Shown here: in pieces, positions 5,340-7,625 of the stretch
Layout: every line of letters starts with the position of its first letter
How positions within the stretch are numbered: the first letter of the stretch is position 1
Assembly: GCF_947258355.1 (NCBI RefSeq)
Contig: NZ_CAMYIC010000012.1
Location: 1 to 64,000, forward strand
Origin: an uncultured Allomuricauda sp.
Lineage (GTDB): Bacteria > Bacteroidota > Bacteroidia > Flavobacteriales > Flavobacteriaceae
DNA: 64,000 bases
Reading direction: 5' to 3'
Position numbers and translations under genes: made by a program
Notes under the pieces: generated by a model
The model's input: the letters and a program-made list of their open reading frames with translations, nothing else
Database searches by the model: none
Told to the model about the DNA's origin: nothing

Positions 5340-5819
5340 TTACGAGCGAACAAAAATGAAATGGATGGAACAAGGTTCCAAATCCCCATCATTGTCAAAG
5401 TCGTAGTCTCCGGAATCGGTACCTCCATTTATGGAAAGGGTAGTTCCGTCATACGTATGGCCGTACGTATCCCAATCATCCGGTTCATCGTCCCATGCAA
5501 CGGCAAAGTAGTAACTGCCCTGCCATTCTTCCCAGAATATTTCTCCGGTCACCGCATAGGCATCCCGGTCTATGGGATCTAAGGTCAAGGTAAAACGACC
5601 ACTCGATTGTACGGACATACTTGCCGTTCCACCATCTTCGACAATGTCGACCGATGTGGTGCTTACACTAAATTGAGCTTTTGTAGCTTCCCAGTTTCCA
5701 CTAAGTTCACTGATTGGAAACGGGCCATCCTTGGTCAACCCATCATCGTCATCCTCCTTGCTGCAGGACAGATTCAGGGAAACCAATGCGATCAAAAAAA
5801 TATACACAAATGTTTTCAT
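5340..5819 (-). CDS. Small lipoprotein of unknown function
   Basis: 159-aa predicted lipoprotein: signal MKTFVYIFLIALVSLNLSC with lipobox Cys at about 19, followed by an acidic linker (KEDDDD). The mature part looks like a small beta-sandwich or lipocalin-like domain (SELSGNWEAT near the start, SGRFTLTLDP in the middle), resembling the many flavobacterial 'lipocalin-like' lipoproteins, but I cannot place it in a named family. Monocistronic and convergent with the oxidoreductase gene. Confidence 0.7.
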   Translation of the reverse strand: MKTFVYIFLIALVSLNLSCSKEDDDDGLTKDGPFPISELSGNWEATKAQFSVSTTSVDIVEDGGTASMSVQSSGRFTLTLDPIDRDAYAVTGEIFWEEWQGSYYFAVAWDDEPDDWDTYGHTYDGTTLSINGGTDSGDYDFDNDGDLEPCSIHFIFVRS

Positions 5820-6157
5820 GGCAATAAGTTTTGGAAAATAGGATAAACCTACTTTCTATTATTACCATAATTTATTTTGATATTAAAGGGTACACAATGA
5901 CGCCTGTCAGTTAGTTGGGGTTATTTAAGGTAAGGCAACTGCTCGGAACGCATTTTAGAATGGACTAAATCAACTACTCCCTAGATGGGATGTTTTGTTC
6001 GGTCAGTATTTTTAGAGATTACACTTATCGGTTTTGTGTATGGCTCGTTGCGGAAAATCAGCTATGATTTTCCGCCATAACCCAAAGATAGCGAATAAGC
6101 GTTGAATTCCGATTAGGAATTCAGCCGCAATGAGTTATACACGGTGTTGTGCTTTCG
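5820..6157. other. Intergenic stretch holding a cloverleaf repeat
   Basis: 338 bases without a coding frame. Bases 5820-6020 show nothing recognisable. From 6022 begins the structured left end of the DUF6090 cassette: an 11-base inverted-repeat end (6022-6032), a cloverleaf-forming segment (6036-6142) and a second inverted-repeat word (6146-6154). Confidence 0.6.
6036..6142. repeat. Cloverleaf-forming palindromic element
   Basis: An outer stem pairs 6036-6053 with 6125-6142 (15 of 18 Watson-Crick pairs, the other three G-T wobbles). Inside it lie an 11-bp hairpin with loop gcta (6050-6060 with 6065-6075, sharing four bases with the outer stem) and an 8-bp hairpin with loop gatta (6103-6110 with 6116-6123). 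Mismatches that keep G-T pairing suggest selection on structure. It has the look of a dispersed flavobacterial repeat, but no second copy occurs in this window. Confidence 0.6.
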
Positions 6158-6883
6158 TTATTTTTTTATTTCTGATTCGATTGAAATATTGACTTTTTTA
6201 AGAAATTTCAATAAATCATTCTCTTCCTCCAATCCTGATTGCCTTACAGTTGTTATGAAATCAACCCAAAAAATAAATTCAGGATTCCGAAAAGATTTTT
6301 TGTTGTCCCTTGAGAGCTTGTTATAATCAACTATTTCTCTTTTTGATGCAATCATTGGCCAATAATATTCTCCTCTTAATTTTTCTATAACTTTAGTATC
6401 TTCATTTGCGTCAATAATAAATTCATTTATTGAGGATAACATATATCTAATTTCTTTATTCTGTATTAAGTTAATTCTCCCTGAATTTATTACTGAATTT
6501 AAAATACCCAGTTTCGGGTCATAAGTGTAGTTGTAATTCATTATAGTTAAGATAGACTTTAAGCTATCATTTGAAATACTATTTAGTTTATTGGTGTCAG
6601 TTATCATAGATTTAATTTCCTGTCCTGCAGCCAAAGATTTCTTATGTTCATCTATTATTATTTCCAATGCTTTAATATTAGATTTTAACTCTGTGTTTAA
6701 ATCAAATAGAGCTTCTTGTTCAGAATCAAAATCTATTCTTTTTTTGTTCCAATTACTAACTTGCAATGCAATTAATATTCCTATAACAACAAGGATTATT
6801 TCTCCAATTGCATAAATTAGGTACTTACTGAACTTATTTTCAGAGAGCAATTTTTGTCTAATTTTTCTAAAGAATTTTATCAT
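6158..6883 (-). CDS. DUF6090 family membrane-anchored protein
   Basis: 241-aa protein with a basic N-terminus (MIKFFRKIRQKLL), one membrane segment at about 23-43 (YAIGEIILVVIGILIALQV followed by SNWNKKR) and a helical, asparagine- and lysine-rich remainder. This N-terminal pattern defines the DUF6090 family, which is abundant and often multi-copy in Bacteroidota; its function is unknown. The soluble part probably lies outside the inner membrane. Base composition is more A+T-rich than its neighbours, and nested inverted repeats and a cloverleaf element surround the gene, suggesting recent arrival as a cassette. Confidence 0.8.
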   Translation of the reverse strand: MIKFFRKIRQKLLSENKFSKYLIYAIGEIILVVIGILIALQVSNWNKKRIDFDSEQEALFDLNTELKSNIKALEIIIDEHKKSLAAGQEIKSMITDTNKLNSISNDSLKSILTIMNYNYTYDPKLGILNSVINSGRINLIQNKEIRYMLSSINEFIIDANEDTKVIEKLRGEYYWPMIASKREIVDYNKLSRDNKKSFRNPEFIFWVDFITTVRQSGLEEENDLLKFLKKVNISIESEIKK

Positions 6884-7034
6884 TGGTTAGCGGTTTGTAG
6901 TAATGAAGCACAACGTTAAAGATATGATTCGTTTTAATGAATTATATCGACCGATAAGTGAAGTTAAAGATTAAAAATTGGAAATTCCACGGTTAATTTA
7001 TGAATGCTGTCTGTGAATTGACGGATTCTTAAAC

Positions 7035-7625
7035 CTACCGATAGGCATCATTCAAACCAATACCCTCCTTGATCATAGGGAGAATTTTTTCCAATCTTCG
7101 AAGTTTGGTTCTCTCCTGTTTGGCCTCTGCAATGTATTCGCAGAACTCTTTTTGTTTATAGGGCGTAAATTTTTCAAACGTAGATTTTAAGAAAGTATCC
7201 TGCTCCAATGCTTTTTGTAATAATTCGGGAATGGATATCTTTTTGGTTCTGTCGGCTTTGATTTCCAACCCCTTTTTTTGGTTATCCAAAGCTTCTTTCA
7301 TGTAGGCCAAGACCGACTTTTTGTCCACTTCTTCCAAATTTTGGAATTTCCAGTGGCGCATTCCTTTGGTCTTGCCTTCCTGTGCATTTTCCAGCACTTT
7401 TTCAGAATCTTTTAAAAACACCCCATTAAAAAACCAAACACCAAAATGTGTTTTGAACTTACAAATACCGAATACATTTTTACCATTTACGGTATAAACG
7501 GGAATACTCCATTTAAAATCCTCATCAGCCTCTGTTGTTAGGGCAATTTCCCTAAGTAATGCAATCCCGTCCCTAAAGGGATGTTCCTTTTTATAATAGG
7601 CCTCTATTTTTTCAGATTTGTCCAC
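7035..7625 (-). CDS. YdeI/OmdA-type protein with DUF1801-like N-terminal domain
   Basis: 196-aa cytoplasmic protein. Residues ~1-120 match the DUF1801/YdhG-like fold (FKWSIPVYTVNGKNVFGICKF; FFNGVFLKD), and ~135-196 are the helical OmdA/YdeI tail (FEKFTPYKQKEFCEYIAEAK, then EKILPMIKEG), whose usual motif is 'S.r.eYv.wI..Ak....R..Ri......l'. Members are annotated as YdeI/OmpD-associated; the mechanism is unknown. It starts with GTG two bases after the pepT stop codon, so the two are probably co-transcribed. Confidence 0.85.
   Translation of the reverse strand: MDKSEKIEAYYKKEHPFRDGIALLREIALTTEADEDFKWSIPVYTVNGKNVFGICKFKTHFGVWFFNGVFLKDSEKVLENAQEGKTKGMRHWKFQNLEEVDKKSVLAYMKEALDNQKKGLEIKADRTKKISIPELLQKALEQDTFLKSTFEKFTPYKQKEFCEYIAEAKQERTKLRRLEKILPMIKEGIGLNDAYR

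Follow-up and report, generated by a model that had tools for sequence, protein, structure and literature searches.

Does the A+T-rich DUF6090 gene that lies between two nested inverted repeats in an uncultured Allomuricauda sp. belong to a mobile unit, and if so, where does the unit end? The feature lies within positions 5,820–7,034 of the window, that is, the whole stretch of 64,000 nucleotides that was analysed. A preliminary description had noticed an outer inverted repeat with 11-bp arms (6022–6032 and 6950–6960), an inner one with 9-bp arms (6146–6154 and 6906–6914), and the low G+C content of the gene. These observations were confirmed: both repeats are exact at these positions, and the gene has a G+C content of 26.3%, lower than that of the window (40.6%) and of its neighbours (46.3% and 37.7%). 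In simulations of the region 5900–7040 (300 first-order Markov sequences), 43% yielded one exact 11-bp inverted repeat or more by chance, and a single repeat of this length is thus weak evidence. Counted over the same region, the inverted-repeat seeds were 23 for 9 bp (8.8 expected; P = 0.013) and 5 for 11 bp (0.73 expected; P = 0.010), again by simulation. We judge both repeats to be real because they are conserved and complementary in the relatives. A search of Rfam gave no match. As judged from the comparisons given below, the two repeats belong to two separate things: the outer repeat consists of both arms of a hairpin in the chromosome, an acceptor site hereafter called X, which a cassette interrupts, and the inner repeat belongs to the core of that cassette.

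All elements are read on the minus strand. The order begins with a DUF1801/OmdA (YdeI-like) gene (7035–7625), which was used in the orthologous-locus comparison, as was the gene for a lipoprotein-like protein of 159 aa on the other side (5340–5819). Then come a conserved stretch (6961–7021; TCAATT..., TGGAATTT..., AACTT), recognised from the column information of 50 X sites at positions −70 to −1, and the left arm of the acceptor hairpin, CACTTATCGGT (6960–6950), which is the right-hand copy of the outer repeat and is paired in the folded empty sites. The inner hairpin of X, hereafter P2, has the form GATATAATTC-ATTAAAAC-GAATCATATC (6948–6921); it rests on pattern matches in the genus and on covariation, and most copies retain one mismatch. 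After TTTAAC follows the putative core site of the cassette, GTTGTGCTTC (6914–6905), in which the crossover was set at G^T (6914/6913) from the start of homology and the comparison of filled and empty X sites. The cargo gene (ATG at 6881–6883, TAA stop at 6158–6160) encodes a protein of 241 aa (6158–6883) that matches the DUF6090 family (PF19578, E = 1.1e-9). Behind it lies an attC-like stretch of 127 bp (6155–6029), which aligns with stretches behind unrelated cargo genes and is laid out as the sites in tandem arrays are. It consists of the inverse core R', AAAGCACAAC (6155–6146), with one mismatch to the complement of the cassette core (its own best pairing); the L' arm, GTGTATAACTCATTGCGG (6142–6125), read from the sequence and sharing its motif with the tandem-array sites; a variable middle; and the L'' arm, CCGCAACGAGCCATACAC (6053–6036), which complements L' save at a few positions, with a similar asymmetry in the relatives' sites. 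The right arm of the acceptor hairpin, ACCGATAAGTG (6032–6022), the left-hand copy of the outer repeat, ends the feature, and the empty sites place the junction near 6029/6028.

The hairpin X recurs widely in the genus. With at most 1 mismatch, the P2 pattern was found at 62 places in 34 of the 71 genus genomes, as compared with 0 for the reversed control, and once in the window genome. A model of X gave matches in 65 of the 71 genomes at E ≤ 0.01 (0 to 18 per genome, two in the window genome) and, at E ≤ 1e-4, in 18 of 199 genomes sampled from the family, window genome included. According to the preliminary description, ends that occur only once in the genome and are not conserved would speak against a mobile unit; the first half of this is nearly met by the single P2 match and the two model matches, and the second half is not. 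In the alignment of fifty X sites, 97.7% of the inner-stem cells are paired (90.9% in shuffles) and 25 are changed on both sides (6.3 in shuffles), with 0 of 500 shuffles as high in either case. Relatedness of the sequences can inflate these two measures; both-sided change occurs at only two of the nine inner-stem pairs, and two of the five covariation measures, the number of both-sided pairs and that of pair types, were not above the shuffles. The empty X sites read ...C|GATAAGTG or, once, GATAAAAGTG. Among four that were folded, three form a clean two-stem hairpin, and the fourth (L352) has pairs in the outer stem, with 10 of 200 shuffles folding as well. Conservation also extends over some 60 bases upstream of the hairpin (e.g., 6961–7021 of the window), where many copies contain TCAATT twice, together with TGGAATTTT; this part may be a promoter or recombinase-binding sites, a function that is only inferred.

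The orthologous loci in relatives bear on the question of the unit's ends. The YdeI-like gene was matched in 62 of the 71 genomes, and 29 orthologous loci were compared, 12 of which were read closely. The comparison with an empty site that the preliminary description had proposed turned out favourably: in G014, an empty X adjoins the same lipoprotein gene, and in G016 and G037, both flanks are retained (80–81% identity, X included) with a RibD-like gene in X instead. The core of this RibD-like gene is GTTTTGATCA, which begins with GTTT and does not fit GTTR, and the best inverse core differs from its complement by 3 mismatches in G016 and by 2 in G037; by its sequence, this cassette looks eroded. 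Empty X sites were also found with other neighbours (G022) and in a degenerate form (G354). In two genomes (G045 and G047), X holds a GTT core and a different sequence; one (G012) has a diverged X-like stretch ahead of another ORF, one (G035) has X about 1 kb away, and one (G002) has both flanks with X not recognisable. This comparison shows X empty, with the window cassette, and with other genes. Over 65 X sites (66 rows minus the reverse reading of one empty site), 7 are empty, 34 hold a cassette whose core finds its own inverse core within 1 mismatch, and in the remaining 24 a GTT core is present without an inverse core of that quality in the sequence seen. The loci were chosen for matching X or the cassette, so that these proportions are biased.

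Such insertions keep both arms of X in place, split at G^A. The outer repeat had been taken for the end of the unit, and this needs correction: the mobile unit extends from the core (6914/6913) to about 6029. DNA homology to other cassette copies starts at the core, which is query base 67, namely at base 67 in G031 and at base 66 in L182. The copy in G031 is the closest to the window gene (84% identity), and its left neighbour is a different hairpin, ATATAGATGTATTTTACATCTATAT (L096/L319, G031:C31 near 55986), possibly an acceptor site of a second type.

In integrons, the core and the inverse core of a cassette meet in the free circle. GTTRNNNNNN opens most of the cassettes read here, and in many the end is formed by the cassette's own complement, NNNNNNYAAC, together with an attC-like stretch: the first 10 bases differ among the cassettes and frequently find a partner in the last 10 ahead of that stretch, following the same logic as an integron cassette. 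Among the units with a GTT core, 40 offered 1,100 bp or more for reading (two reverse-strand readings of palindromic empty sites excluded). In these 40, the pairing of the own core over the 7 variable-side bases was perfect in 14 and within 1 mismatch in 26, as compared with 2 and 77, respectively, of the 1,542 cross-pairings between cassettes; no own complement at ≤ 1 mismatch was found in the other 14 units. The canonical integron core was not met, GTTRRRY fitting only 1 of 47 distinct cores. These comprise 17 from the attI loci described below and 32 typed from X sites (an incomplete selection), with 2 in common; GTTR was imposed by the search itself, and cores outside GTTR exist. The attC-like sites have the layout and the tandem arrangement of attC. 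The naming of core and inverse core, and the size range of 57–141 bp for attC, are those given in the available part of PMC3053210; several of the relatives' sites are longer. As single-stranded DNA, the window stretch folds well (z = −4.3 and −4.5), and the L'/L'' stem is absent from its lowest-energy fold, which has two internal hairpins instead.

When the whole unit was searched against the 71 genus genomes, the gene and its two ends were matched independently of each other. In 40 matching loci taken from these genomes, similar ends were found to enclose unrelated genes, a check that the preliminary description had proposed. Pfam families were matched by 7 of the 10 cargo proteins scanned (chosen, not random), each by a different family: beta-lactamase-family, HNH, RsgA, esterase, PIN, outer-membrane barrel, and RibD_C. 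We interpret the window feature as a single integron-type gene cassette of ~885 bp (6029–6913) with a DUF6090 cargo, inserted at G^A of X. The idea of a discrete, non-autonomous unit resembling an integron cassette, without a recombinase of its own, is thereby supported by the ends, the empty site, and the swapped gene in the relatives. We regard it as highly probable that an integron-type cassette was set into a dedicated landing site by an integrase other than IntI; our confidence was reduced slightly because the core in G016 and G037 is eroded and the L'/L'' stem of the window is missing.

Several attC-like sites run into the GTTR of the next cassette, forming tandem arrays. In F. pacifica, a 272-aa tyrosine recombinase is divergent from an attI-like end, TATCCAGTA|GTTGGCAAAC, and the array proceeds in the order of first cassette, attC, DUF6090 cassette, attC, transposase-like gene, and next core. 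The comparison of the loci places cassettes both in tandem and at an attI-like end beside a divergent tyrosine recombinase. This end (TATCC..TA or close, followed by GTTR) lies 87–89 bp from the recombinases of this group in 18 of 18 loci, which consist of 16 of the 46 recombinase loci (63% identity or more; L258 is broken) and two plasmids, and which are not independent, five having an identical block. At these loci, 17 different first cores were found. The first cassettes have their own inverse core perfectly in 11 and at ≤ 1 mismatch in 16 of the 18, as compared with 1 and 27, respectively, of 304 cross-pairings; in the two that miss it (L237 and L248), only 1,720 and 944 bp were readable. 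A strict array finder gave nothing for three DUF6090 clusters (L320–L322) or for L162. The transposase-like gene of the F. pacifica array (516 aa, recognised by eye; L182, 2640–4280) has an attC-like site on one side and the next core on the other.

Five genomes (F. pacifica, A. nanhaiensis, F. alvinocaridis, [Muricauda] okinawensis, and Arenibacter sp. F20364) share a 908-bp block of integrase and attI without a single difference, and a 750-bp cassette at position 1 in F. pacifica is 100% identical to those at positions 2 and 3 in A. nanhaiensis, with other neighbours. The same integrase protein is also plasmid-borne, in F. marinaquae and in Arenibacter algicola; both plasmids were typed as mobilizable, and the first cores of these plasmid copies differ. 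In the F. marinaquae plasmid (L367; NZ_CP092416.1, 10047–12819), the interval of the first attI cassette holds an annotated erm(F) in the orientation opposite to the cassette; a dihydrofolate-reductase-family gene comes after erm(F), and a Tn3-family transposase adjoins.

Other recombinases were less informative. The attI examination left out 18 of the 46 loci (L264–L281). A GTTR start also stands on the divergent side of a second group, of 277–282 aa (L200, L204, L216–L218, and L220), at a comparable distance, in few loci. For recombinases of about 371–417 aa, attI or a cassette was not convincing, nor was either convincing for 12 relatives at 37–52% identity (L251–L257 and L259–L263); attI candidates with 1 mismatch at other positions in L252 and L253 were read as chance. 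In several genomes, those of 379 aa (L187, L188, L190, and L191) adjoin a stretch that resembles a tRNA by eye, and no cassette was seen there.

The recombinase beside the cassettes passes the XerA-type NCBIfam model 'site-specific tyrosine recombinase/integron integrase' (NF040815; 238.5 against a cut-off of 220) and fails the IntI model TIGR02249 as a whole protein (205.9 for L182 and 196.7 for L245 against a cut-off of 265), the match being split around model positions 180–238; two control IntI sequences (L264 and L269) scored 440 and 358. For four further sequences (L266, L268, L270, and L273), IntI is merely our label, only L264 and L269 having been scanned with the profile. No insertion in the IntI-specific region was found among 8 aligned sequences. 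The spacing from box I to HxLRH is 65 aa in the recombinase group (measurable in 4 of 11 members), as compared with 73 in 4 of 4 host Xer proteins and 107–108 in three IntI-like sequences. By these tests, the additional domain specific to IntI is missing from the cassette-adjacent recombinase. No IntI above the TIGR02249 cut-off was found in any of the 71 genus genomes, with matches scored piecewise. In a tree of 45 sequences, the recombinase joins the 277–282-aa set (99/98), whereas IntI (100/99) and Xer (100/100) form groups of their own. The deep joins are unsure owing to long branches; IntI_L265, IntI_L263, and other_L317 were excluded by choice, and five loci (L250, L316, L269, L271, and L255) gave no full ORF. 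The nearest solved structures by sequence are XerA (5hxy), XerC-like (4a8e), and IntI4 (2a3v), and our own structure model, built with 8 sequences, was too poor (mean pLDDT 68.7, pTM 0.35).

The preliminary description had suggested looking for a Y-transposase or tyrosine recombinase whose distribution matches that of the ends. A tyrosine recombinase stands at the attI-like end in relatives, but it was not found here, and its distribution does not follow X. The window genome has no close copy, the sole match at E ≤ 1e-30 being a 46%-identical enzyme of another group; G363 has 18 X matches and no recombinase match at E ≤ 1e-30, and G049 has the recombinase and no X match. X at E ≤ 0.001 was not found in the sequence around 16 integrase loci.

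The mechanism that we propose is inferred. The attI-associated recombinases, partly plasmid-borne, would excise cassettes as circles in which the complete attC is restored, and G^TT of the circle would recombine with G^AT of X or with attI; folded single strands are probably the substrate. As the enzyme was not found in the window genome, it would have been active at an earlier time or while passing through on a plasmid, and a passing plasmid-borne enzyme would, as a hypothesis, explain the mismatch between the distributions of X and the recombinase. The action of the attI-associated enzyme at X is inferred from the shared attC families and cassettes, the recombination itself not having been observed. 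On slightly better than even terms, we suggest that Flavobacteriaceae harbour a separate integron lineage, whose integrase would lack the I2/IntI domain, reside on mobilizable plasmids, and serve chromosomal landing hairpins, genomes without the enzyme keeping swappable slots.

The observations that could speak for another origin must be weighed against this. The perfect outer repeat, the dispersal of X at different loci, and the conservation of the sequence upstream of X would all suit a single element, either a structured RNA or MITE-like, that has terminal inverted repeats and of which X and the attC-like end are the halves and the gene is in the loop, mobilised whole by a DDE enzyme. However, X stays at one locus across species while its inside changes or is missing; cassettes of the same layout are also found in tandem arrays and at attI ends, and the copy in G031 adjoins a different hairpin. 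Moreover, the inner core is where homology sets in, and the outer repeat persists as the empty site, so that the unit is not bounded by terminal inverted repeats, and we consider such an element very improbable. Mobilisation of REP-type sites by a Y1/RAYT transposase, an alternative raised in the preliminary description, is scarcely credible to us: the palindromes are indeed short, structured, and dispersed, but the enzyme adjacent to the cassettes is a tyrosine recombinase of the phage-integrase family, and both arms of X remain after insertion, split at G^A. No support for it was obtained here, Y1 transposases being outside the search.

The more serious question is whether the cassettes are real but were inserted into X by a recombinase other than the attI-associated one, for example, the host Xer or a further tyrosine recombinase. 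We regard this as unlikely, though by no means negligible. The X counts across genomes do not follow the attI-associated enzyme, X and attI have little sequence in common by eye, and X is lacking near the integrase loci. Against this, an attC of the F. pacifica array aligns at 73–80% and near full length with 6 of the 30 attC of X cassettes and partly matches 2 more, the window attC not being among them. In addition, DUF6090 cassettes with the GTTGTGCTTC core occur both in X and in the array behind attI, their proteins being only 39% identical over 156 aa. 

Returning to insertion by the attI-associated integrase, the system resembles integrons in its divergent tyrosine recombinase, the fixed attI-like end, the tandem single-gene cassettes, the R'/L'/L''/R'' layout of the attC-like sites, and a core that starts from GTT and is complementary to its own inverse core. 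It differs in that the recombinase lacks the IntI-specific region and fails TIGR02249, the cores are mostly GTTR rather than GTTRRRY with pairing of up to 10 bp, and many cassettes are single, in dispersed structured chromosomal sites. Two traits that were tested, the IntI region and the GTTRRRY core, are lacking, and for this reason we do not class it among the standard integrons. Integron cassettes have reportedly been found inserted in the genome at non-classical sites, termed attG (Loot et al. 2024, known to us by title only). The location at non-classical genomic sites is shared, whereas X, ~110 bp long and conserved, is a specific site whose hairpin covaries; it keeps an orthologous position in several species and is reused by different genes. 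With XerA-type and XerC/D recombinases, the enzyme shares the NF040815 match and the nearest PDB entry by sequence; in contrast to them, it adjoins an attI-like end and cassettes, and it is separate from the host Xer in the tree. Clusters of attC lacking an integrase are called CALIN in the portion of PMC11389934 at hand; as in these, the cassette here is in a genome without the integrase, but it is one cassette inside an acceptor hairpin and not a cluster.

The literature searched, which included no preprints and few subscription papers, yielded no account of such a system. In the parts of the sources that were accessible, the IntI domain is called a defining character (PMC9668308), the selection of this domain before attC sites existed is put as a chicken-egg paradox (PMC4792948), Bacteroidota are among the phyla with integrons (PMC8618304), and IntegronFinder 2.0 names Salinibacter ruber for Bacteroidetes proper (PMC9024848). 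If the present reading is true, cassette recombination would not need the domain that defines IntI, and the chicken-egg question would become testable, whether this domain-less system is ancestral-like or convergent. Tools keyed to IntI probably miss it, as we infer. If real, it would also explain the spread of single genes such as DUF6090 in marine Bacteroidota.

Two minor observations remain. A motif guessed for Bacteroidota repeats, GTTATACACAACGTT, was not the key: it is rare in the genus, being met at 1 mismatch in 7 of 60 genomes, in which the reversed control gave more matches, and had no exact match in 295 class genomes. A pattern with a perfect stem gave 0 matches in the genome contigs. 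Elsewhere in the window genome, similarity to the start of the DUF6090 gene was seen at G000:C26:98650–98747 (L002).
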